From Fidelibacterota bacterium (GTDB taxonomy: Bacteria; Fidelibacterota; Marinisomatia; SCGC-AAA003-L08; D37C17), in assembly GCA_002731795.1 (NCBI GenBank), contig PCCQ01000025.1, forward strand, positions 14,049 through 58,321: 44,273 nucleotides of DNA, written 5' to 3'. Below, piece by piece: positions 30,040 through 43,224 of this stretch. The notes under the pieces are model-generated. The model was not told where the DNA came from. It did not search any database and saw only the letters and a list, made by a program, of their open reading frames with translations. The translations under genes and the position numbers were made by a program. The first letter of the stretch is position 1. The number at the start of each line of letters is the position of its first letter.

Positions 30040-30693
30040 ATGAACAACAATAAAATATTAAAAATAAATGAGATCTTCAAAAGCATTCAAGGAGAGTCAA
30101 CTGTAATGGGAAAACCATGTGCTTTTGTACGACTCACGTACTGTAATCTTCGTTGTAGCTATTGCGATACGGAGTATTCTTTTCATGAAGGCAAAAACAT
30201 GAAAATAATTGATATAATTGAAGAAGTTAAATCTATGAATACAAATTTAGTAGAAATAACTGGGGGTGAACCAATGCTTCAAAAAAATGTAATTCCTCTG
30301 ATGAAGGAATTTTTAAACAATAATTTTGAAGTTATGCTTGAAACGTGTGGGGCTATTTCACTGAAAGATGTTCCAAAAAAAGTTAAAAAAATTGTTGATT
30401 TTAAATGTCCATCAAGTAATATGAAAGATAAAAATTTATGGTCAATTCTAGATGAGCTTTCATCCCATGATGAAATTAAATTTGTGATTGGCAATAGAAC
30501 TGACTATAAATGGACATTAAATAAAATAAAGCAATATAATTTAGATTCAAAGTGGACCATTCTACTCTCACCTGTTTTTAATAAATTAAAACTTGATAAA
30601 CTTGCAAATTGGATTCTTGAAGATAACTTAAATGTCAGGCTGCAGCTTCAAATGCATAAATATATTTGGGATCCAGAAATGCGCGCAGTTTAA
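30040..30693 (+). CDS. queE: 7-carboxy-7-deazaguanine synthase (radical SAM)
   Basis: 217 aa; IFKSIQGESTVMGKPCAFVRLTYCNLRCSYCDTEYSF; VEITGGEPMLQ. Confidence 0.95.
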   Translation: MNNNKILKINEIFKSIQGESTVMGKPCAFVRLTYCNLRCSYCDTEYSFHEGKNMKIIDIIEEVKSMNTNLVEITGGEPMLQKNVIPLMKEFLNNNFEVMLETCGAISLKDVPKKVKKIVDFKCPSSNMKDKNLWSILDELSSHDEIKFVIGNRTDYKWTLNKIKQYNLDSKWTILLSPVFNKLKLDKLANWILEDNLNVRLQLQMHKYIWDPEMRAV

Positions 30694-30796
30694 TTTGAAA
30701 ATTTTTGCATTTTTATTTTAAAAATGTGATTTACATGACATTCTTCCGCTTTCTTATAAATATTTATTTGATATAAAGTAATTTTCATTTTAATTT

Positions 30797-30811
30797 TGAG
30801 AATGATTCTCA
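30797..30811. promoter_or_regulatory. Fur-box-like perfect 7-1-7 palindrome
   Basis: TGAGAATGATTCTCA (arms TGAGAAT/ATTCTCA are exact reverse complements); extended gagaatgattctcattatc matches 16/19 of GATAATGATAATCATTATC. Upstream of the heme operon. Confidence 0.75.
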
Positions 30812-30819
30812 TTATCATT

Positions 30820-30955
30820 TAGAACTTTAGCTATTATCATTTGTTTTCTGTGTCGTAAACAATCTTTTTGGCAAAAAGAATATGTGATGAGCAATCATAA
30901 ACAGACGTCATAAAAGGGGGTTAAAGAAATACCCCATTGCTTTAACCCCCTTTTT
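30820..30955 (+). ncRNA. Candidate Fur-regulated leader RNA or sRNA ending at a strong terminator (5' end approximate)
   Basis: Non-coding stretch between the Fur-like box and an intrinsic terminator; internal small hairpin cttttt-ggc-aaaaag at 30864-30878; no supported ORF. Confidence 0.35.
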
Positions 30956-30956
30956 T
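30912..30956 (+). terminator. Strong intrinsic terminator or attenuator hairpin
   Basis: AAAAGGGGGTTAAAG - aaataccccattg - CTTTAACCCCCTTTT TT: 15-bp perfect stem, 13-nt loop, T-tract. Confidence 0.85.
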
Positions 30957-30989
30957 CTGACATAAATATTAATAAGGAGTTTTAAAGAA

Positions 30990-32807
30990 ATGAATCTATT
31001 GAAATCAATTGTAATATTAAATTTAACAGGGTTTTTACTAGCTGTTTGCCCTTCTGGTTTTTACGAAGATGACTGTGGTAACTGCTGGTTACCTTACTGC
31101 TATGACTATGTATCCCATAATGTAAGTTATGATTCATCAGAAAGTTCTTGCAATGGTCCTACAGAGATGTGGGTGATACCTGGAGATGAAGGTGATCCTT
31201 TCTTCAATAATTACTGTGATTCTTGTCCTGAAGGTTTTACACCAGATAATTGTGGCCACTGCTGGCAAGGATACTGCTATACTCTATTTGCTGATCCTCC
31301 CCATACTGTATTTTGGGATTTATCAGAGACTGAATGTATAGATGCAGGCTATGGATTTTACCCTCCAGGATCAAGTGATGGCGACCCGTATTTTGGATAT
31401 AATTGTGAAGGTTGTCCTGATGGAGAAATTGAAGATGATTGCGGTGTATGCAATACTGGAGAAGATAGTCCGTATTGGAATATGACATGCGGTGATTGTA
31501 ACGGAGATGCTAATGGATATGCAATGGTTGATGACTGTGGTGATTGTCAACTTTCCTACTGCTATGACTATATAACTCACGAATCTAACTTTGATACACC
31601 TTGTGATGGAGCAACAGAAGTTTTAGTCATGCCAGATAGTCCTTCAAACCCTTTATGGAATAGCGGATGTGATCCAAATGCGTGTCCTGATGACCAAGTT
31701 GAAGACTGCGCTGGAGTATGTGGTGGATTTGCAATGGTAGATGACTGTGGTGTATGTTCAGACAATTACTACTGCTATGATTATGTAACACATCAAACCA
31801 ATACAGACTTCCCTTGCGATGGACCAACTGAGATGATGGTTATGCCTGATAGTGACTATAACTCAGATTGGAATGCTTCATGTACAGATTGTGCAGGTGA
31901 AGTAAATGGATATGCAATGGTTGATGACTGTGGTGATTGCCAATCAGCATATTGCTATGATTATGTAACACATCAAACCAATACTGACTTCCCTTGCGAT
32001 GGACCAACTGAGATGATGGTTATGCCTGATGACCCTTCAAATCCTTATTGGAATAGCGAGTGCAGTGGATGCGCACCTGGCGATGTTATAAATGATGGCT
32101 CTATTGATGTGCTAGATGTGGTTGCAATTGTAAGTTATATACTAGGTAATAATCCATTAGCCCCTGATGTTATAGATTGTGCAGATTATGTTCAAGATGG
32201 TAGTGTCGATGTTCTTGATGTTGTAGCTATTGTTAATATCATAATTGATGGAAGAATTACATCAAGCGCAACAGAAGCTAACCTTAATATAAATGATAAC
32301 AAAGTAACATTACATGCTAATGGATTTATAGGAGCAGTTCAAATGACTATTAGTCATGACAGCAACTTCTCTATAAATTTAACTAATAAGGCAATGGTTG
32401 CTGATTATAATACTAATGGCAATAGTACATCTCTAATTATTGTTGCCCCTGATAGTGAAGAACTATTTTATACAAGTGGTAATTTCATTATTGAGGAAAT
32501 AATAGTAGCTAATGAAGAGAGCTATATACCTGTAGATATGCCAAGCGAGTTTATGGTAAGCAAGGCATACCCTAATCCTTTTAATCCATCTACAAGTGTT
32601 AGTATTTATGTTCCTACAAATGATTTTGTAAATGTTAGCGTATACAATGTCATGGGACAAAAAGTTGCAACTCTTTATAATGGGTCAATGGCTGCAGGAA
32701 ATCATATCATTAGATGGAATGCATCTAATATGACCAGTGGGATGTATTTCATTCGCACTGAATCAAAATCGGATGCATCAATTCAGAGAGTTTCTTTAGT
32801 TAAGTAA
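30990..32807 (+). CDS. Secreted Cys-rich repeat protein with dockerin type I and T9SS type A C-terminal domain; candidate heme/metal-binding
   Basis: 605 aa; RBS aaggag; repeats VDDCGDCxxxYCYDYVTHQTNTDFPCDGPTEMMVMP; dockerin DGSIDVLDVVAIVSYILG...DGSVDVLDVVAIVNIIIDG; C-term SKAYPNPFNPSTSVSIYV...NVMGQKVATLYNG...SGMYFIR. Confidence 0.8.
   Translation: MNLLKSIVILNLTGFLLAVCPSGFYEDDCGNCWLPYCYDYVSHNVSYDSSESSCNGPTEMWVIPGDEGDPFFNNYCDSCPEGFTPDNCGHCWQGYCYTLFADPPHTVFWDLSETECIDAGYGFYPPGSSDGDPYFGYNCEGCPDGEIEDDCGVCNTGEDSPYWNMTCGDCNGDANGYAMVDDCGDCQLSYCYDYITHESNFDTPCDGATEVLVMPDSPSNPLWNSGCDPNACPDDQVEDCAGVCGGFAMVDDCGVCSDNYYCYDYVTHQTNTDFPCDGPTEMMVMPDSDYNSDWNASCTDCAGEVNGYAMVDDCGDCQSAYCYDYVTHQTNTDFPCDGPTEMMVMPDDPSNPYWNSECSGCAPGDVINDGSIDVLDVVAIVSYILGNNPLAPDVIDCADYVQDGSVDVLDVVAIVNIIIDGRITSSATEANLNINDNKVTLHANGFIGAVQMTISHDSNFSINLTNKAMVADYNTNGNSTSLIIVAPDSEELFYTSGNFIIEEIIVANEESYIPVDMPSEFMVSKAYPNPFNPSTSVSIYVPTNDFVNVSVYNVMGQKVATLYNGSMAAGNHIIRWNASNMTSGMYFIRTESKSDASIQRVSLVK
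31773..32030 (+). repeat. Near-identical 78-bp direct repeats at 180-bp period (31773-31850 and 31953-32030)
   Basis: tgctatgattatgtaacacatcaaaccaata[c/t]... to ...atgatggttatgcctgat, one mismatch in 78 bp; 180 bp = 60 codons. Confidence 0.9.
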
Positions 32808-32819
32808 AACTATAAGACT

Positions 32820-32858
32820 GTACAAATGGGCATAATAGTATATTATGCCCATTTGTAC
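32820..32858 (+). other. Long perfect hairpin in the intergenic/leader region before hmuT
   Basis: GTACAAATGGGCATAAT - AGTAT - ATTATGCCCATTTGTAC, 17-bp perfect stem; no T-tract follows. Confidence 0.85.
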
Positions 32859-32876
32859 TATATAAGGAATAAAACT

Positions 32877-33731
32877 ATGAAAGTTATAATTAAAAGTATT
32901 TTAATCACATGGGTTGTAAGCTTTATTTTTGCTTCTCCATCTATAAAATCAGATAATAGATTAGTTACCATTGGAGGTAGCGTGACTGATATAGTTTTTG
33001 CTCTGGGTGAAGGAGACTTAGTGGTAGCAGTTGATCAATCGAGCACACTCCCTGAAAAAGTTAAAGATTTGCCTCAAGCTGGATATGTAAGAGCTATATC
33101 AGCAGAGGGAATACTTTCTATGCTCCCAACAAAAATATTAGCATCATCTGATATAGGTCCTCCTAATGTTATTAATCAATTAGAGTCATCTGGTGTAGAA
33201 TTTGAAATTTTTAATTCTCCAAAATCATTTAGAGATGTTATTAATCTTGTAGAACAAATCGCATCATTTTTAAATGTAGAAGAAAGAGGATTAAAACTCA
33301 AAGAGAAACTTATATCAGATCAAGAAAGAATTAATGAAATGAAAAAAGATTTAATAGATCCTCCAAGTATTGCTTTTTTCATGAATCCCTCAACTACTGG
33401 GAATTATAGTGCAGCAGGCAGTGGAACTAGAGCTGACTATCTAATAGATTTCATTGGTGGTATAAATGTTTTTAAAGATAGTTTTATACGATATAACAAA
33501 GTTAATAAAGAAACGATACTTGATTATAACCCAGATATAATATTTGTTGCATCCACAGGAAGTGGGGAAAATAGTAAGTCTGTTTTTCTTGATGATCCAA
33601 CTTTTAAAAATATAAGTGCTGTTAAAAACAATAAAATTATTTTTCTGGATTTAGGTTATCACCTTACTTTTGGAAGTGTGTTTGGAGAATCAGCTATTCT
33701 TGCGTTAAGTTTAGTACTAGGTGATGAGTAA
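32877..33731 (+). CDS. hmuT: Hemin ABC transporter substrate-binding protein
   Basis: Start moved from 32826 to ATG at 32877 (signal MKVIIKSILITWVVSFIFASP, upstream aagg). RLVTIGGSVTDIVFALGEGDLVVAVDQSSTLPEKVKDLPQAGYVRAISAEGILSMLPTKILASSDIGPP. Confidence 0.9.
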   Translation: MKVIIKSILITWVVSFIFASPSIKSDNRLVTIGGSVTDIVFALGEGDLVVAVDQSSTLPEKVKDLPQAGYVRAISAEGILSMLPTKILASSDIGPPNVINQLESSGVEFEIFNSPKSFRDVINLVEQIASFLNVEERGLKLKEKLISDQERINEMKKDLIDPPSIAFFMNPSTTGNYSAAGSGTRADYLIDFIGGINVFKDSFIRYNKVNKETILDYNPDIIFVASTGSGENSKSVFLDDPTFKNISAVKNNKIIFLDLGYHLTFGSVFGESAILALSLVLGDE

Positions 33732-34791
33732 AAAATATGAAAAAAATACAATAATATTTTTAATAGGATTATTTCTCCTTGCAATAATTTCACTAGTTTC
33801 AACAACAATTGGTCCCGTAAAAATATCTATACTCCAGATTATAGATATTCTTTTTGAAAGTATTAACATTAATACGAATTTAAGTTCATCTGAAATAAGT
33901 CAAGCCTTTAAAACTGTAGTTATAGATATTAGATTACCTCGAATTTTGATGGGTATAATTGTTGGAATTGCGTTAGGAATTTCTGGAGCAATACTTCAAG
34001 GACTTTTTAGAAATCCACTTATTGACCCCGGCTTTATTGGTGTTTCAAGTGGAGCGGCAATTGGTGCCATGTTTGTGATTATGTTTTCACAATTAATAGC
34101 TATAGAAAATAATTTTTATATTCAATTCCTATTACCAGTATTTGCTATGTCGGGAGGTTTAAGTACTACTATTCTAGTATATAAAATGTCACAAATGTCA
34201 GGAAAAACAAATATCATGGCTATGCTCTTATCAGGAATAGCTGTTAATGCATTTTCTGGATCAATTATTGGATTTTTAGTATATAGAGCTTCTGATATGG
34301 AATTAAGAAGTTTTACATTTTGGACTCTGGGAAGTCTTGATAATTCAAATTGGCTAATAGTATCAATTGCAGTTGTTGCAATTTTAATACCAATTATTAT
34401 ATCGATTAATTTAAGAAAAAAATTAGATATTTTTATGCTTGGAGATGCTGAAGCTGGATATCTTGGACTAAATATAGAGAAATTAAAAAAAAGAATAATT
34501 TTTATATCAGCTCTTATGGTTGGAGTTACTGTTGCATTTTGTGGTATGATTGGTTTTATTGGTTTAGTGACGCCTCATCTTGTTAGATTAATAATGGGGC
34601 CAAGTCACAAAACATTAATATTTGGATCAGCGATATTAGGAGCTATAATATTAATTCTTGCAGATTTTATTTCAAGAATTATTATTGCTCCAGCTCAGCT
34701 TCCTATAGGTATAATAACCTCAGCATTAGGGGCACCTTTCTTTCTATGGTTAATTGTTTCACAAAAACAAAAAATTAGATATGAAAAATAA
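33724..34791 (+). CDS. hmuU: Hemin ABC transporter permease (FecCD/BtuC family)
   Basis: IRLPRILMGIIVGIALGISGAILQGLFRNPLIDPGFIGVSSGAAIGA; GFIGLVTPHLVRLIMGPSHK. Confidence 0.92.
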   Translation: MSKKYEKNTIIFLIGLFLLAIISLVSTTIGPVKISILQIIDILFESININTNLSSSEISQAFKTVVIDIRLPRILMGIIVGIALGISGAILQGLFRNPLIDPGFIGVSSGAAIGAMFVIMFSQLIAIENNFYIQFLLPVFAMSGGLSTTILVYKMSQMSGKTNIMAMLLSGIAVNAFSGSIIGFLVYRASDMELRSFTFWTLGSLDNSNWLIVSIAVVAILIPIIISINLRKKLDIFMLGDAEAGYLGLNIEKLKKRIIFISALMVGVTVAFCGMIGFIGLVTPHLVRLIMGPSHKTLIFGSAILGAIILILADFISRIIIAPAQLPIGIITSALGAPFFLWLIVSQKQKIRYEK

Positions 34792-35572
34792 ATCAACTAA
34801 TATTTTAACTGTAGTAGATGTCTCTTACGAAATAAATGATATTACAATAAATAAGGGTATCAATTTTAATATAAACCTCGGAGAAATAGTTTCAATAATT
34901 GGTCCGAATGGTTCTGGCAAAACAACCTTATTAAGATTAATATCAGGTGATATTGTTCCTTCATATGGAAATATTGAGTTTAGAGAAAAAGATTTAAATA
35001 ATTATGACCCAAAAGAGATATCAACTATGCGTGCTGTACTTCCACAAAATAGCCACATCTCATTTCCGTTTACTGTTAATGAAATAATTCAAATGGGAAG
35101 ATTTCCACATCCTGAAAATTATAAATCAGATAAGACTATTGTCGATGATTTAATTAAAACTTTTGATTTAAATGATTTTTTAGGGCGCGATTTTACCTCA
35201 TTGTCAGGAGGTGAAAAACAACGAGTACAACTAGCAAGAGTTTTTGCACAGATTTGGTCTGAAGATAGCTATAATGGGAAATTACTAGTTTTAGATGAAC
35301 CAACATCATTTCTAGATATTAAACATCAACTTGATTTTTTTGAAATTATTAATGATTTTAAAAATAATGGTTTGACAATTATTATGGTATTGCATGATAT
35401 AAATCATGCAAGTTCGTTTTCAGATAAAATAGGGATGATGAAAAAAACAGAATTAATTTATTTTGGAGATACTAGAGATGTAATAAATTCTCAAAATTTA
35501 AATGATGTTTTTGATATAAATCTTAAACTTATTAATATTGATTCTAATGGAAGAAAATTAATCTATCTATAA
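34781..35572 (+). CDS. hmuV: Hemin ABC transporter ATP-binding protein
   Basis: IIGPNGSGKTTLLRLISGDIVPSYG; LSGGEKQRVQLARVFAQIW; LLVLDEPTSFLDIKHQ; start probably ATG 34781 overlapping hmuU. Confidence 0.92.
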   Translation: MKNKSTNILTVVDVSYEINDITINKGINFNINLGEIVSIIGPNGSGKTTLLRLISGDIVPSYGNIEFREKDLNNYDPKEISTMRAVLPQNSHISFPFTVNEIIQMGRFPHPENYKSDKTIVDDLIKTFDLNDFLGRDFTSLSGGEKQRVQLARVFAQIWSEDSYNGKLLVLDEPTSFLDIKHQLDFFEIINDFKNNGLTIIMVLHDINHASSFSDKIGMMKKTELIYFGDTRDVINSQNLNDVFDINLKLINIDSNGRKLIYL

Positions 35573-35586
35573 TTAAGGATTTAAAA

Positions 35587-36096
35587 ATGAATGAAGTTAT
35601 AAAAGAAAAAAATAATTTAATTAATAATATGAGCTCATTAATCCTTGGAACTACAAACAATAAGAACCTTCCTAATTCTAGCTATGCTCCATTTGGTATT
35701 GATAATGAAAATAACTTTTATATTTTTATTAGTGAGTTATCAAAACACACAAAAAATATAATGTTAAATCCAAATGTCTCACTTATGATTATTGAAGATG
35801 AATCTAAATCTAAAACCATTTTTGCTAGAAAGCGTCTAACAATAACTGGTAAGGCGTCAATAATAAACAGGAATGAAAAAGATTGGAATCAAAAAATAAA
35901 AATTTTAGAAAATAAATTTGATGATACATTTACTTACTTAAAAAATATGGAGGACTTCCATCTATTTAAAATTACTCCAATATCAGGATTACTAGTATTT
36001 GGATTTGCAAAAGCATTTAATCTTGAAGGACCTGAATTAGTAAATGTTGTTCATCTTAATGAAAAAGGTCACAGGCCTAAAAAGGAGAAACAATGA
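35587..36096 (+). CDS. hugZ: HugZ-family heme utilization protein (PNPOx-like split-barrel fold)
   Basis: SSYAPFGIDNENNFYIFISELSKHTKNIMLNPNVSLMIIEDESKSKTIFARKRLTITGKA; EDFHLFKITPISGLLVFGFAKAF. Confidence 0.85.
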   Translation: MNEVIKEKNNLINNMSSLILGTTNNKNLPNSSYAPFGIDNENNFYIFISELSKHTKNIMLNPNVSLMIIEDESKSKTIFARKRLTITGKASIINRNEKDWNQKIKILENKFDDTFTYLKNMEDFHLFKITPISGLLVFGFAKAFNLEGPELVNVVHLNEKGHRPKKEKQ

Positions 36097-36626
36097 AAAG
36101 AATTTTAACTATAATTTTATTTAATTTTATATTTTCAGCACCTGAACTAGTAATTGGTGAAGAACGAATTGCACCAGGTATTAAATTTATTTTTGAAGGT
36201 GCAATAAAAGATCATATTATGCCACATAAAATGCATTTAGATGAAAACTTAACTCATGTCCATATTGAAGCCAGGGTAAATTGGGATACTTCAAATATTC
36301 CTGAGGGAGCAGTTAAAGGTGGATTTGTACCCTATCTTCACATAACTGCAGTCGTAACTAATGAAAAAACCGGCCTTAGGACTTTTATAGACTTAGTACC
36401 ACATATCAACTTGATCGATAATTTTCATTATGCTAGAAATATTTCTTTACCTGGATCAATTGATGATAATTATAGCGTAGAGTTCAATATTATACCTCCA
36501 ACACATATAGATTTAGCTCTACATAAAGATTGGCATGATCTATATGGAGATAATCTAATTTCATCAAACAGTTTTAATTACAAAAAAGTAAATTTCAAAG
36601 AAATCGCTAAAGCTAGACGCCATTAA
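36093..36626 (+). CDS. P19/Tp34-family periplasmic iron-binding protein
   Basis: 177 aa; signal peptide; DHIMPHKMHLDENLTHVHIEARVNWD; GGFVPYLHITAVVTNEKTGLRTFIDLVPHINLIDNFHYARNISLPG follows the P19 pattern (DIHLEA / IPYL / TG / PHYG.NI). Confidence 0.75.
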   Translation: MKRILTIILFNFIFSAPELVIGEERIAPGIKFIFEGAIKDHIMPHKMHLDENLTHVHIEARVNWDTSNIPEGAVKGGFVPYLHITAVVTNEKTGLRTFIDLVPHINLIDNFHYARNISLPGSIDDNYSVEFNIIPPTHIDLALHKDWHDLYGDNLISSNSFNYKKVNFKEIAKARRH

Positions 36627-37413
36627 CAATTAGTCCAATAAGAAGTATAACGTCAAATATATCAATATTTAAATCTTGATTTATATCATGTAATTCAAAA
36701 TCTGTAGTTTCTAAATTAGAAGATAGAATAAAATCTAATAGTGAAATAATATCAAGTATATTAATACTTGAATCTTGATTAATATCTCCATCTAGAAGAC
36801 ATGTATTGTTATTTCCTCCACAGACGCCACAATAATCCATCCCAAACGTACAATCTATATCATCATTGTACAATACAGATATACGTCCGCTGCTACCCAC
36901 ATCATTATAATAGTTATATGGCCATATTTTAATAAAATTCTGTCCATCAGCAGTCCTAACTATTAACTGATTATCTGAAGGTACAAGTGTGTAGTTATTA
37001 TCAAAATCAAAATCTCCCCATGTTTCTAATGAGGGACTTGTTGACCCCCAAGACATTGTGTGTGTTGATAAATCATAAAAAGTTTGTAACATTGTATCCT
37101 GATGAAATTCTGTATTCATTGGAACTGCAGTTAAATTATTAAATTGGTCTGCGGTCCATATATTAATAGAATCAACAGATGCTCCACCAAATCCATTACC
37201 AGAAGTACCACTATTTGTTTTAATGTGATTCCTCTGAAATGCTATATCCCACCCTAAAGAATTCTCAGGATCAGAAATTACAACCTCTGAATGCAATGCA
37301 AAATTATAGTATACCCAAGAGCTATAGCTACTTGCATCAATCTCAATTGAATAGTTTTCAGAGAATATAATAGATAGATATATAAAAGATACCAAGTTTA
37401 AATATTTATTCAT
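36613..37413 (-). CDS. HmuY-like heme-binding domain protein with C-terminal dockerin type I
   Basis: IDASSYSSWVYYNFALHSEVVI...LGWDIAFQRNHIKTNSGTSGNGFGGASVD is the HmuY-family signature; C-term DGDINQDSSINILDIISLLDFIL...HDINQDLNIDIFDVILLIGLIV is a dockerin pair. Confidence 0.82.
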   Translation of the reverse strand: MNKYLNLVSFIYLSIIFSENYSIEIDASSYSSWVYYNFALHSEVVISDPENSLGWDIAFQRNHIKTNSGTSGNGFGGASVDSINIWTADQFNNLTAVPMNTEFHQDTMLQTFYDLSTHTMSWGSTSPSLETWGDFDFDNNYTLVPSDNQLIVRTADGQNFIKIWPYNYYNDVGSSGRISVLYNDDIDCTFGMDYCGVCGGNNNTCLLDGDINQDSSINILDIISLLDFILSSNLETTDFELHDINQDLNIDIFDVILLIGLIVNGV

Positions 37414-39643
37414 TTTTCATTTCCTTTTTAAAATTAATAACCAAGTTAAAATAAAATCTTCTACCAGGATCATAACTGGTAAGTATATCTGGGCTTTCGT
37501 CGCCTAATCTTTTTGGATCCTTATAATCAAAAAGATTTTTAACTCCCACATTCCAATAAATATTTGGCAAAGAAAATGAAATAAAAGTATTGGAAATAGA
37601 ATATGCATCCAGATTGTTATCATAAAGAGTTTTACCAGTTAAATATCTGTTAGAAAGTGTGAATTTTATATTATCATTAAACGAATAAGAAAAAATAGTT
37701 TTAATTGAATATTTACTAACTCCATCAAGGTAAAATCTATATTTCTCAGGAGCATCCGTTATACTAAAAGTGAACATTAAAGAAGCTTTGTCAATTAAGT
37801 TATTAAAATTCCAAGATGTATTTAGACCATATAATACAACCTTATCAAAATTTTTTGATTGGTAGTATGAATCTCCATCAACTTCAGTGTTTGGATCGAT
37901 AAGTTTATAGCCAATTCTGTTATAATCATTACTATAGTATAATTCTAATGAAGAACTCTTGCTATCTTCATAAGAGAAACTAAAGTAATTAGATGTTTGA
38001 GGCTTTAAATCTGGATTTCCATAGATGGGAGGACTGTGCTCAGGAAATTCGTAATATAATTCTTTAACCGTTGGAGATCTATAATTTGAGCTTAAATTGA
38101 TTCTAAATATATGATTATTGAAATCTTTTTTTATACCAATTGATGGTGAAAATTTAAATTTATATGAGTTATTATAGTTTATTCTTATTCCACTATTAAT
38201 AAAAAGATTATCACTTTGCTTAAAGTTATCAGCAACATAGAATGAATATCTACTTGATGAAAAGGTTGTATCAATATTAAAAATTGAAGGGTAAGTTACA
38301 TTATTCTGCTGGTCGATAATATTTTTACTTGAAGTTTCGTTATAGATAGCTTCAAAACCAGTGATTAAAATATGATTATTTAAAGATGCTGTTTTATATA
38401 TAGCATTAATTGCACTAAAATTAGACTCTCCCCAATCAAAAACTTCTTCATCTATAATTTGTTGATCATAATCGCCATAATAGTATGGATATCTAATGTT
38501 TTTTGTATACAATTCATTCTGAATAGAAATTGTAAAATTAGTTTTACTATTAATTATCTTTGAGTATTTCAATATATAATTTACGTCTCTATAAATGGGA
38601 AGTTCAGGTGCATCTACTATACTACCTGTAGGTATACCATAAAAAACTTCCTGCGCTCCACTTGTTTTAACTTTTTTAAATATATTTCTATCATATTTTT
38701 TTAAATAAAAACTCAAATTACTATCTTTATCAATTTTAAAGTTGAAATTACTTGATATTATATTACTTTCATTTTCATCAAGAGTCTTATCAATTCTATT
38801 CGACGTTGATTCTTGTGCAGGAGTTAAATCATATCCATTAGAATATTTATTGCTAAAGCTTAATGCAAAACTAATTTTTTTATAATCAAAACCAAGATTA
38901 AATGAGTTATTTATTACCATAGGATCATCATAATTTTTTGAATACTCAAGCCAATAACTGTTTGTTTTTTGTTTAGATATTAAATTAACTACTCCACCTA
39001 CAGCACCTGAGCCATATAAAGTTGACATTCCACCGCGAACGACTTCAATATTTTGAATATTTGATAAATTAATCATTTCAAAATCTACATTTCCTGCATG
39101 CTCTCCAGAGATTCTTTGACCATCTATCAGGAATGCTATATTATTAGTTTGATATCCTTGTATTTTCATTGTTGGTACACCATGAGGGTCCCAAATGAAT
39201 TGAATATTAGGAATTGTATTTTCAAGTACTTCAATAACATTTGAAGAACCCGAACTCTTTATTTTTTCCTCTGTAATAACATGGGTAACTACAGGAGTAT
39301 CTTTTAAATTCATAATACTAGTATTTTCACTAATTTGAATTTCTTCTGATGCTATGGGATCAAGTTTTAGAATAATTTTTTTTAACTTAGAATTTTGGGG
39401 ATTATAAATAATTTCTTGATCTCTATATCCTATATGTTCAATAATGACCTTGTATTCTTTTTCTTGATCAATACTTATTGAAAAATATCCATCCTGATTT
39501 GAGATTGCATATAATGAAATTTCAGGAATGATTACTGATGCATTCGATATAGGGTTATTATTTATATCATAAATGAAGCCCTCTATATTCTGGACTGCAA
39601 ATATTAAATGAATACATAATATAAAATATAATTTACTTTTCAT
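37406..39643 (-). CDS. TonB-dependent heme receptor, HmuR/HemR type
   Basis: 745 aa; CarboxypepD_reg-like N-term, plug VLENTIPNIQFIWDPHGVPTMKIQGYQTNNIAFLIDGQRI; NYRSPTVKELYYEFPEHSPPIYGNPDLKPQ matches the FRAP-His-NPDL heme receptor motif; barrel end RRFYFNLVINFK. Confidence 0.88.
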   Translation of the reverse strand: MKSKLYFILCIHLIFAVQNIEGFIYDINNNPISNASVIIPEISLYAISNQDGYFSISIDQEKEYKVIIEHIGYRDQEIIYNPQNSKLKKIILKLDPIASEEIQISENTSIMNLKDTPVVTHVITEEKIKSSGSSNVIEVLENTIPNIQFIWDPHGVPTMKIQGYQTNNIAFLIDGQRISGEHAGNVDFEMINLSNIQNIEVVRGGMSTLYGSGAVGGVVNLISKQKTNSYWLEYSKNYDDPMVINNSFNLGFDYKKISFALSFSNKYSNGYDLTPAQESTSNRIDKTLDENESNIISSNFNFKIDKDSNLSFYLKKYDRNIFKKVKTSGAQEVFYGIPTGSIVDAPELPIYRDVNYILKYSKIINSKTNFTISIQNELYTKNIRYPYYYGDYDQQIIDEEVFDWGESNFSAINAIYKTASLNNHILITGFEAIYNETSSKNIIDQQNNVTYPSIFNIDTTFSSSRYSFYVADNFKQSDNLFINSGIRINYNNSYKFKFSPSIGIKKDFNNHIFRINLSSNYRSPTVKELYYEFPEHSPPIYGNPDLKPQTSNYFSFSYEDSKSSSLELYYSNDYNRIGYKLIDPNTEVDGDSYYQSKNFDKVVLYGLNTSWNFNNLIDKASLMFTFSITDAPEKYRFYLDGVSKYSIKTIFSYSFNDNIKFTLSNRYLTGKTLYDNNLDAYSISNTFISFSLPNIYWNVGVKNLFDYKDPKRLGDESPDILTSYDPGRRFYFNLVINFKKEMKNE

Positions 39644-39652
39644 GCTTCTAAA

Positions 39653-39667
39653 TGAGAATGATTCTCA
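39653..39667. promoter_or_regulatory. Fur-box-like perfect 7-1-7 palindrome
   Basis: TGAGAATGATTCTCA, identical 15-mer to 30797-30811; about 10 bp upstream of the TonB receptor start codon. Confidence 0.78.
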
Positions 39668-39737
39668 AAATCATTTACTTAATTTAAAAAGGGAATGATT
39701 AACTATAAAGTTAATTCTCTAAAAAATAAGACATTTT

Positions 39738-41939
39738 TTAGGATAAAATTATATTAACAACTTGGACAATATCTAAGATATTAAGTATGCCATCAGAATT
39801 GATGTCTCCTGCCTGAAACTCTAAATCAGAAGGGTTAGTACTTTCAAGTACAAAATTTACTAAAAGAACAATATCCAAAACATCAACATTAGCATCAAAG
39901 TTCAAATCACCAGAAAGTATTGGCTCGGATTCAACATATGAATACAAAATAAAACTATCAATGAACGCCGCATCATCACAGTTTGTATTACTACAATCTG
40001 TAGATCCCCCACCACCATCTTTACTATATGTCCAAGTTAATGTATATTCTCCTGGATCTAAAGAGGTACTGTAATTTATCCAAGGGCTTTGCCCATTAGC
40101 ATCAGGTTGATATTGACCAATTTGTTCGCCATTTATAGAAAAAGTTAATCCATCATAAAAGTTACTTCCAGAGGGACTATATTCTGATGACACTCTATAT
40201 GAAAACTCTAGAGTACTCAGTGTAGTTGCAAGTAGTGTTAATGATGCTGTAGACTCTTGATTATCTCCTATAGCACCTGATCGAAATGAGTTAGATCCAG
40301 AATTAGAAATATCTGAAGTAGTATACCAATCTGAATTTCCTGATAAATTCCATTCACTCAGATCTTGGTTGTTTTCAAAATCGTATACAATTACTGGCTC
40401 AGGAACTCCTACTATAAGACTGATTGTAGATGTGGATTGTGAACCATCAGGCAATGTCATAACTAAAGTTATCTCCATTTCAGAACCTGATGGGACAAAT
40501 GGAGATATATAAAATTCATTTATACCATCTAAATTGATAAATGACCTGGGATCAAGATCTGAAATTTCAATATTGGGATCCAAGAAATCAATACCTGGAG
40601 TAGCTAAAAATTCTAAATTAATATTGCCATTTGTTGATGATAAGCCAGTATTAGCTAATGATATATCTATTGAATAAGAATCATCAGAGGTATATGGACC
40701 AGCCTCAACATTTACAATTGATGATACTAAAGCACCAGCATAAAGAGCAGTCCTAATATTTGGATATAAATTTTCTTCAGCAAGTGGGACAATTCTATTT
40801 GTTGGTGGCCAAAATCCATCACTTGAATTACCTACCTCCGGAGTATATGCAAAAATACCATGTTCGCCATACATCCAATCACACGCCTCTCCATTAACAG
40901 GATACAATATATCTGGACCAGTTCCCCATACATAGTTATTATATTGAGTCATATCTTGAGCATATTCAATAAATGTATTCAAATCATCTTGATCCATATT
41001 GTTTTCATACGAATAGCCAAAAGGATATATCAATAGATTACTATAACTATGGTAATTCATAGCTATCTTAAAATCTCTTTGTTCAACAAAGTTCTTTACA
41101 GCTTGTGTTTCAGATTCTGAGAATGGACTCGTTCCTCTATAAGTTTCACTGCAAGGGTTAGAACTAGAACCTTGATCATCCAATCCCCACATATAACCAT
41201 AGTTTCTATTTGGATCAATTCCATCTGCAGAGCCATTACATGTTTCTCTCATATTTTTTCTTTGCATACCACCACCATTAGGTGCAATTGATCGATTATA
41301 TTCATAACCGTCAGGATTAACTATTGGAACAAACCACAATTCACGATTATCAATAATATTTCTAGCCTCATCATTTATCTCATAATTCTCTAAAAGCCAA
41401 TATATATAATAATATAAATTCATAAAACTCATAGGTTCTCTAGAATGATGCATACCAGTAAATAGTACTTCCGGTTCATTCTCATCTAAATTAGGATTAT
41501 TGCTAATTTTAATTGCCCAAATATCTCTTCCTTCGAAAGTTTGTCCCAGTGAAAATTTTTCTGAAACAAATTGAGGGTATTCATCATGGATATAATCTAA
41601 TCGTTGAATAGCCTCATCAAGAGTATAATATCCTCCCATAGACCCAAGGCCAAATTCTCTTGTATAATTTGATGTCAACCTACTCTCATAATGCTTCTGA
41701 AGATCATGATGCACTACTTGATATTCATATCCTAAATTATTTAAAATAGATAAATCTCTGTTCGAAATTGCAAATTCTATATACTCACCTCTTCTGTAAT
41801 CAGCATGGTCAAATTCTATACCACTATATTGAAATAATGAGATATCATCATCTGATACATTATCAACTTTTATTTGGTGGTAAATTTCATTTGAAAATAA
41901 AAAACTTACAATGCATATATATATTAATCTTAATATCAT
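39738..41939 (-). CDS. Secreted M14 zinc carboxypeptidase with C-terminal dockerin
   Basis: 733 aa; zinc/active residues MHHSREPMS, DPNRNYGYMWG, NYHSYSNLLIYPFGY, YTPEVG; C-term SGDLNFDANVDVLDIVLLVNFVLE...GDINSDGILNILDIVQVVNIIL. Confidence 0.92.
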   Translation of the reverse strand: MILRLIYICIVSFLFSNEIYHQIKVDNVSDDDISLFQYSGIEFDHADYRRGEYIEFAISNRDLSILNNLGYEYQVVHHDLQKHYESRLTSNYTREFGLGSMGGYYTLDEAIQRLDYIHDEYPQFVSEKFSLGQTFEGRDIWAIKISNNPNLDENEPEVLFTGMHHSREPMSFMNLYYYIYWLLENYEINDEARNIIDNRELWFVPIVNPDGYEYNRSIAPNGGGMQRKNMRETCNGSADGIDPNRNYGYMWGLDDQGSSSNPCSETYRGTSPFSESETQAVKNFVEQRDFKIAMNYHSYSNLLIYPFGYSYENNMDQDDLNTFIEYAQDMTQYNNYVWGTGPDILYPVNGEACDWMYGEHGIFAYTPEVGNSSDGFWPPTNRIVPLAEENLYPNIRTALYAGALVSSIVNVEAGPYTSDDSYSIDISLANTGLSSTNGNINLEFLATPGIDFLDPNIEISDLDPRSFINLDGINEFYISPFVPSGSEMEITLVMTLPDGSQSTSTISLIVGVPEPVIVYDFENNQDLSEWNLSGNSDWYTTSDISNSGSNSFRSGAIGDNQESTASLTLLATTLSTLEFSYRVSSEYSPSGSNFYDGLTFSINGEQIGQYQPDANGQSPWINYSTSLDPGEYTLTWTYSKDGGGGSTDCSNTNCDDAAFIDSFILYSYVESEPILSGDLNFDANVDVLDIVLLVNFVLESTNPSDLEFQAGDINSDGILNILDIVQVVNIILS

Positions 41940-41943
41940 TTTA

Positions 41944-43224
41944 TTATCCTGTAATTTGATTTACTAATGAAATAACATCTAAAATATTTAAAATACCATC
42001 ATCATTAGAGTCGCCAATTTGGATCTGAGTGCTAGATGCTTCTACCGCACCCAAAACAAAATTAACTAGAAGTACAACATCTAAAACGTCAATAGAGTCA
42101 TCCATATTAACATCTCCATCAGCATATGATGTATAAGTTAAATCGGGTATACCCTTAACTCTACAATGAAGTGCATCTGTAGATTGCCATGAACCTGTAA
42201 AACCAAGTATTTCATGATCAGGCATAGCTGCCTGATAAACCTCAAGAGCATCATCATCCCATTGACTGTTCATAATTGGAACGAATACTTTATTATTCAA
42301 AATCAAGGAATTTGTATAGGGTTGATCATTAGGAGTATAAACTCGAAAGACTTCCCATTCAGTCCCAGATGCTGTAAGTGTATTTTCAAAATAAGTTGCC
42401 ACTTCTTCAATTTCATTATATTGAGGATGAGATATTGGCACTTCTCTAATTAACATTCTAGAAGGAGATAAATATTTACCCCAACAATCAATATGGTCAA
42501 TATATTCATCGTTTGGGTCAGCAACTACATGATATGTATCGATTCCATAATAATCGTACATAATATTATCAACATAAGCACACGGAGCAAGAGGAACACT
42601 TGACTGATCATTAGTTCCACATTGACTATTTTCAGTATATGCTATTTGAGTTGCAGCAGCAATACCATTTCCATCTGTCATGTAATTACCCCCAGTAGAT
42701 ACCACATCTGCTGAAAAGTATGGTACGTCTAAATGTTGTGATACTTTATAAGGAGCAGCATTATCATTAGGTCGAGGTCGATTATAAGTAAAATCTACGA
42801 TACCTATATCACCATTCCCATCAACTACCCACCATGGGCCATAATCACGAGTCCAATAAGAATCTGTTGAGCCAATAATAAATTCAACATTATTCATATC
42901 AACATCTGCATTATTCATAGAATTATAAGCAGAGCTTTGCTGGTTGGATGAAACTAAACAATAAATAACTACATCCTCAGCCATTTCCCTAATTAAGGAA
43001 GTTGATATACCAAAAGGATATCTTATTAGAACTCCCTGCATAGGCTCATATTCTGCAATATTTCTAATAGGAGTCTGCGGTGGGTCTGTCCTATACCCCA
43101 TCTCATCAATTAGATGTCTATTTTCCCATTCCTCTGGCGTAAATCCAATAGGCAACTCATCACCTCTTATATCAGAAAATATTGAAAATCCTAATAACAA
43201 ACTTAAAACTATATAATTAACCAT
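41944..43224 (-). CDS. Secreted agmatine deiminase / bacterial peptidyl-arginine deiminase (PPAD) family protein with C-terminal dockerin
   Basis: 426 aa; signal peptide; DSYWTRDYGPWW, STGGNYMTDG, HIDCWGKYLSP, DALHCRVKGIPD; C-term GDVNMDDSIDVLDVVLLVNFVLG...GDSNDDGILNILDVISLVNQI. Confidence 0.9.
   Translation of the reverse strand: MVNYIVLSLLLGFSIFSDIRGDELPIGFTPEEWENRHLIDEMGYRTDPPQTPIRNIAEYEPMQGVLIRYPFGISTSLIREMAEDVVIYCLVSSNQQSSAYNSMNNADVDMNNVEFIIGSTDSYWTRDYGPWWVVDGNGDIGIVDFTYNRPRPNDNAAPYKVSQHLDVPYFSADVVSTGGNYMTDGNGIAAATQIAYTENSQCGTNDQSSVPLAPCAYVDNIMYDYYGIDTYHVVADPNDEYIDHIDCWGKYLSPSRMLIREVPISHPQYNEIEEVATYFENTLTASGTEWEVFRVYTPNDQPYTNSLILNNKVFVPIMNSQWDDDALEVYQAAMPDHEILGFTGSWQSTDALHCRVKGIPDLTYTSYADGDVNMDDSIDVLDVVLLVNFVLGAVEASSTQIQIGDSNDDGILNILDVISLVNQITG

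Follow-up and report, generated by a model that had tools for sequence, protein, structure and literature searches.

In uncultured Marinimicrobia (SAR406), whose use of heme has hardly been studied (the literature that we found on Marinimicrobia and heme concerns other matters), we describe a repeat unit of ~54 amino acids that is, judged by the genes around it, a new module linked with heme uptake of the HmuY type. The reading that we favour, and consider fairly likely, is that the protein carrying five such units in the analysed stretch of DNA (44,273 nt, hereafter the window) serves as a cell-surface accessory of this uptake system, with heme or a heme protein as its putative ligand. A role in surface heme acquisition accounts best for a conserved linkage to heme genes, a fusion to HmuY, a unit that stays constant while its anchors change, and a Fur/TetR promoter.

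The gene (working name CYT, 30990..32807, plus strand) is an open reading frame for a 605-aa repeat protein, longer than the range first proposed for it (30990-32260), which ends inside the frame. Its product consists of a signal peptide, five Cys units, a dockerin, a beta region of 110 aa and a T9SS tail. The signal peptide-like N terminus (residues 1-19, 31046 being the last position of 30990..31046) was recognized from sequence, with a helix over residues 2-17 in a low-confidence model. For the units we used an HMM built from those of other genomes only (avoiding circularity), which recovered all five predicted repeats at 45-78 bits: unit 1 (residues 27-80, 31068..31229, 77.8 bits), unit 2 (residues 86-143, 31245..31418, 47.1 bits, a form with a longer hairpin loop), unit 3 (residues 181-233, 31530..31688, 64.9 bits), unit 4 (residues 251-302, 31740..31895, 45.1 bits) and unit 5 (residues 312-362, 31923..32075, 68.4 bits), all on the plus strand. 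As 1000 shuffles of the region scored 9.3 bits at best, an origin of the units as chance repeats is ruled out, and the score of unit 2, originally listed as divergent, identifies it as a true, if divergent, unit; the pair of units 1 and 2 is kept in relatives (L033, L034, L036, L037). Between units 2 and 3 lies a collapsed unit that lacks the hairpin (DDCGVC...SPYWNMTCGDC, residues 149-171, 31434..31502, plus strand, partial HMM matches), and units 4 and 5, which are 98% identical over 81 nt, are evidently a recent duplication. The units are followed on the same strand by a type I dockerin-like domain (32076..32237, PF00404, E 1.2e-4; at 22.6 bits just short of its cut-off of 22.9), by the ~110-aa beta-rich stretch, which has no clear family, and by a T9SS C-terminal sorting domain (32568..32789; PF18962, Por_Secre_tail, E 2.4e-9; TIGR04183, 6.8e-10). 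Dockerin and T9SS tail were the only matches in the CYT protein, and the repeat unit itself falls under no family of Pfam, NCBIfam or the PDB. The two features sought for T9SS cargo were both found, the TIGR04183 tail on the protein and an SprA_N match in the window's genome; the predicted secretion by way of a T9SS tail is thus upheld at the level of sequence, and the protein is presumably located at the cell surface.

The consensus of the unit, DDCGxCWxxYCYxxxxHxVxxDxxxxxCxxxxxxxVxPxxxxNPYWNxxCxxC, contains a Tyr-Cys-Tyr triplet that is nearly invariant and a hairpin His that is kept in ~85% of the heme-linked units (unit 1 of G022, unit 4 of G016 and the two units of G011 lack it or carry it at another position) and is absent from the non-heme paralogs of the g3 genus described below. 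Met is not conserved: the Met-rich TEMMVMP core of the original prediction is present in units 4 and 5 but peculiar to them, [M/x]WV-x-P being commoner across units. Cysteines appear to be lost in pairs, since both units of G012 lack C4 and C3 (with an ambiguous base at C3 in one of the two), and unit 1 of G013 has lost C1 and C5 together. These two cases would imply disulfides C3-C4 and C1-C5, leaving C2-C6, and the pairing so derived suggests that the cysteines form disulfides and are not metal ligands; in a secreted protein, disulfides are the default expectation. An AlphaFold2 model of units 1-2 (7 rows, mean pLDDT 69, ~76-89 across the core of unit 1) places strands at YCYD, H-x-V and EMWV, and the full-length model, which at a mean pLDDT of 42 served for the strand pattern alone, repeats them in the other units, from which we infer, with moderate confidence, a beta-hairpin fold.

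Foldseek returned no solved relative of the unit at E <= 0.001 (the best matches being chance) and a profile search of PDB sequences yielded no relative; nor did Pfam, NCBIfam, PDB and Foldseek give any heme-binding domain or structural match for the units. The same holds specifically for NEAT, HasA, CFEM and HtaA (by Pfam, PDB profile, or Foldseek at E <= 0.001) and, in Pfam searches, for HmuY (PF14064), if the distinct HmuY domain of the G011 fusion is set aside. The ends of the unit (DDCGxC...CxDCAG, that is C1-C2 and C5-C6) do resemble the ordinary CGVCGG/CTDCAG linker of secreted Marinimicrobia proteins, from which the unit differs by its inserted YCY...H...C...MWVP hairpin and NPYWN segment and by the occurrence of full units only in heme loci. 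The unit may therefore have arisen by placement of a hairpin and NPYWN between C2 and C5 of such a linker.

In agreement with the original prediction, the CYT gene precedes a heme ABC importer, encoded by genes for an HmuT-like substrate-binding protein of heme/corrinoid type (32826..33731, PF01497, with IsdE/BtuF models below cut-offs), an HmuU-like permease (33721..34791, PF01032) and the HmuV heme ABC ATPase (34754..35572, NF010068 above cut-off). A HutZ/HugZ-type heme-degrading protein (35587..36096, TIGR04110, E 1.3e-48, below cut-off) and a P19/Tp34-type iron transport protein (36093..36626, PF10634, with P19/FtrA/Tp34 relatives in the PDB) follow, likewise on the plus strand. Convergent to this block of CYT, HmuTUV, HugZ and P19 genes, on the minus strand, lie an HmuY domain joined to a dockerin (36613..37413; PF14064, E 2.3e-20; HmuY structures 3h8t and 8b6a) and its partner TonB-dependent receptor (37406..39643; PF07715; TonB-hemin subfamily, E 6e-23, below cut-off), so that both components by which an HmuY system was recognized are at the locus. 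Further along (41944-43224), a dockerin-bearing protein resembling agmatine/peptidylarginine deiminases (family assigned by eye) is encoded beside an M14-like peptidase, and these two genes stay beside HmuY in congeners.

CYT is the first gene behind a Fur box, as originally proposed: GAGAATGATTCTCATTATC (30798..30816, plus strand) matches the E. coli consensus at 17/19 positions, better than any other site in the 44-kb window, while a second Fur-like box (39654..39672, minus strand, 15/19) is found upstream of the receptor-HmuY pair. With weaker boxes upstream in G016, G013 and G011, iron (Fur) control is predicted at the level of these boxes. About 100 nt after the Fur box of the window, and ending ~35 nt before the CYT start codon (30798-30957), a 15-bp G+C-rich hairpin precedes a T run (30912..30954, plus strand; z = -5.7 for the 136-nt stretch) in the manner of an intrinsic terminator. 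It is possibly an attenuator/terminator, or else a short RNA under Fur control; relatives yielded no conserved copy of it, and an Rfam search of the stretch gave sub-threshold matches only. The promoters of relatives carry a further element, the palindrome TTCGA-N8-TCGAA (or a form with one arm shorter), which is present before CYT in G009, G008, G016, G013, G020 and G021 and precedes the fusion gene of G011, in several cases with Fur-like boxes just downstream, and G009, G008 and G016 have a TetR-family gene (PF00440) immediately upstream of CYT; the window's CYT promoter has the Fur box only. TetR gene and palindrome likely represent a local repressor, perhaps heme-sensing, and its operator. 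Among heme-locus promoters, the gene and/or the palindrome were located at L033:8618-9484, L034:936-1726, L035:8273-8986, L036:10396, L039:1723, L040:10322 and L041:907.

A profile of 27 units (A1), run over 245 Marinimicrobia genomes, detected full units in 11, all of the window's family, and all of them among the 30 genomes of the phylum that encode HmuY (hypergeometric 1.4e-11, uncorrected for phylogeny). Within the family, units were found in 11/14 genomes with HmuY vs 0/9 others (P = 3e-4). The three HmuY-bearing members without units (two of these genomes being only 58-65% complete) indicate that CYT is not essential to the HmuY system. In all 11 unit genomes CYT adjoins, with gaps of 5-150 nt to its heme-locus neighbours, or is fused to, genes for heme-type TonB receptors, HmuY or HugZ, and the linkage to heme uptake originally drawn from a single locus thus holds throughout, HmuY fusion included. 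As these genomes are all related, the adjacency may reflect few independent events. The gene orders comprise CYT-TonBR-HmuY (G009, G016, G020, G021, and as 3' fragments at contig ends in G007 and G008), CYT-TonBR (G012), HugZ-CYT (G022), HmuTUV-HugZ-TonBR-HmuY-CYT (G013), HmuTUV-HugZ-TonBR followed by HmuY fused to units (G011), and the CYT-HmuTUV-HugZ of the window. At the same chromosomal site two congeneric species (L108 and L109, from G017 and G018, compared with window 30040-41939) lack CYT-HmuTUV-HugZ-P19 and retain QueE, TonBR, HmuY, the M14 peptidase and the deiminase-like gene, which implies that the block was gained or lost together.

Unit copy number and anchors vary among relatives while the unit persists: the T9SS tail is replaced in G013 by a dockerin alone, in G022 by a C-terminal hydrophobic tail and in G011 by the fusion, and short members of 172-219 aa exist, of which that of G022, with 172 aa and two units, is little besides units. 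The G011 fusion (L039:2-1633) is a 544-aa frame, cut at the contig end, that comprises HmuY, a unit, a cupredoxin (E 0.0011), a second unit and a dockerin. It would place a copper-protein domain within a hemophore, where it perhaps oxidises ferrous hemoproteins ahead of heme extraction. Within the phylum the repeat was not widespread in unrelated contexts, the exceptions being an archaeal-like contig (C68, see below) and a His-less unit in the g3 genus, three genomes of which encode long CGVCGG linker proteins with one divergent unit outside heme loci (L113:1-1827, L114:1-1479, L115:8543-9958). No relatives were found on phages, plasmids or viral contigs. As a separate matter, HemB (ALAD) was not found in 9/14 HmuY-bearing genomes of the family (three of them 91-93% complete), which are possible heme auxotrophs within SAR406; heme auxotrophy as a driver found no support, HemB being absent from 9/14 HmuY genomes vs 3/9 others (P = 0.2) and present in the window's own genome.

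A search of the phylum with a 30-column hairpin profile (A4) returned essentially the heme-locus proteins, two marginal matches and contig C68 of the window's assembly. This contig (G000:C68, L116:3560-12328) encodes secreted proteins of plastocyanin/fasciclin type with CYDxxxHxV...C...MWV hairpins and His/Asp-rich stretches, and by its GC content (0.40 vs 0.30), halocyanin/plastocyanin domains, fasciclin-like repeats and PGF-like tail it is probably an archaeal contaminant of the bin. Its hairpins (C-Y-D-xxx-H-x(8-11)-C-...-MWV) are like that of the unit in their invariant C, Y, H and C, but they lack the C1/C2/C5/C6 frame and are tied to copper proteins, their partner domains, instead of heme loci. 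The hairpin thus seems common to different domains of life, and its recurrence in archaeal-like plastocyanin proteins indicates that it is not heme-specific in origin and that the Tyr/His pattern belongs to the hairpin and is no proof of heme ligation.

How the units would act may be construed in several ways: they might take up heme itself, attach to heme proteins or to HmuY, or serve as a stalk. The original prediction, a multivalent hemophore or metal chelator, stands as regards the linkage to heme uptake and falters on the chemistry, given that the cysteines look disulfide-bonded, the Met-rich segment is unconserved, the Tyr/His pattern recurs in C68 and no structural relative of the unit was found among hemophores. 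Direct ligation of heme iron by the YCY Tyr and hairpin His of each unit is conceivable, about one chance in four in our estimation: besides the locus linkage, most heme-linked units retain both Tyr and the His, the non-heme g3 paralogs have lost the latter, and the ligand type has precedent, as two papers (PMC6200708, PMC12106395) describe His/Tyr, His/Met or bis-His ligands in known hemophores. The His is, however, missing or moved in the units of G022, G016 and G011 named above, a 54-aa disulfide hairpin leaves little room for a heme pocket, and a similar pattern occurs in the archaeal-like plastocyanin proteins. Slightly more doubtful still is the further-reaching proposal that the unit founds a new hemophore class, a ~54-aa disulfide-pinned beta-hairpin binding heme through the tyrosines of YCY and the hairpin His, arrayed in tandem on T9SS-exported proteins and sharing its bare hairpin with marine archaea. 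These estimates overlap with that for the favoured reading, as direct heme binding is one way in which a surface accessory could work.

The resemblance of the unit's ends to an ordinary linker, the occurrence of a divergent, His-less g3 unit away from heme loci, in long linker proteins, and the separation of HmuY, cupredoxin and dockerin by the units of G011 would also be consistent with a stalk, in which stiffened CGVCGG-type linkers hold a T9SS anchor, dockerin or HmuY off the surface and bind nothing. We regard this as improbable, on a par with the founding of a new hemophore class: in 11/11 genomes full units occur nowhere but in heme loci even though CGVCGG linkers are present elsewhere in the same genomes (which, leaving aside the single divergent unit of three g3 genomes, weakens the reading as an unspecific linker), YCY, H and C4 of the hairpin are conserved although a plain linker would suffice there, and some members, as in G022, are hardly more than units. 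Still less credence is due to copper or iron handling, whereby Met, His and Tyr of the hairpin would bind Cu or Fe together with P19 and cupredoxins (e.g. in redox steps freeing heme or iron). The P19-like gene in the window's operon, the cupredoxin between the G011 units and the plastocyanin domains and His/Asp-rich stretches beside the archaeal-like hairpins weakly keep metal chelation alive; on the other hand, Met is unconserved, the cysteines appear disulfide-bonded, P19 shares the operon only in the window among CYT loci, and in most of these loci HmuY/TonBR is present but no copper gene.

The locus is of the same type as the Hmu system of Porphyromonas, in which HmuY and a TonB receptor are often joined by HmuTUV and a heme-degrading enzyme. 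One CYT relative (G011) fuses HmuY to units, but the units have no similarity to the HmuY family (PF14064), and the repeat protein is additional to that system; we know of no gene like CYT in P. gingivalis hmu. The multidomain hemophores of Gram-positive bacteria (NEAT-domain, HtaA/ChtA) are comparable in manner of working only, as iron-regulated tandem surface modules ahead of a heme importer, whereas the units show no sequence or fold match to them, are ~54 aa long, disulfide-rich and exported by T9SS. The CFEM proteins of fungi take up heme by way of small, disulfide-rich modules at the surface; this likeness too is one of working, the Cys pattern of the units being different and a Pfam CFEM match lacking.

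Returning to the surface accessory of HmuY-type uptake as the preferred reading, the CYT protein would be made under iron shortage (through Fur, probably joined in relatives by a local TetR repressor), exported by T9SS, and would display one to five small modules, each a disulfide-pinned beta-hairpin, working ahead of HmuY, the hemophore, and of its TonB receptor. There they may catch heme or heme proteins, the heme then being passed, in a presumed order, to HmuY, the receptor, HmuTUV and HugZ. Taken together, the 11 loci, a naturally occurring fusion to HmuY and the short members (172-219 aa) suited to expression and heme titration define a previously unnamed module tied to heme uptake, and the CYT protein is probably a new part of the heme-scavenging machinery of Marinimicrobia. 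If the units bind heme or heme proteins, they would amount to a new device for capture at the cell surface, and the gene could be used as a marker of heme scavenging in metagenomes from the ocean.
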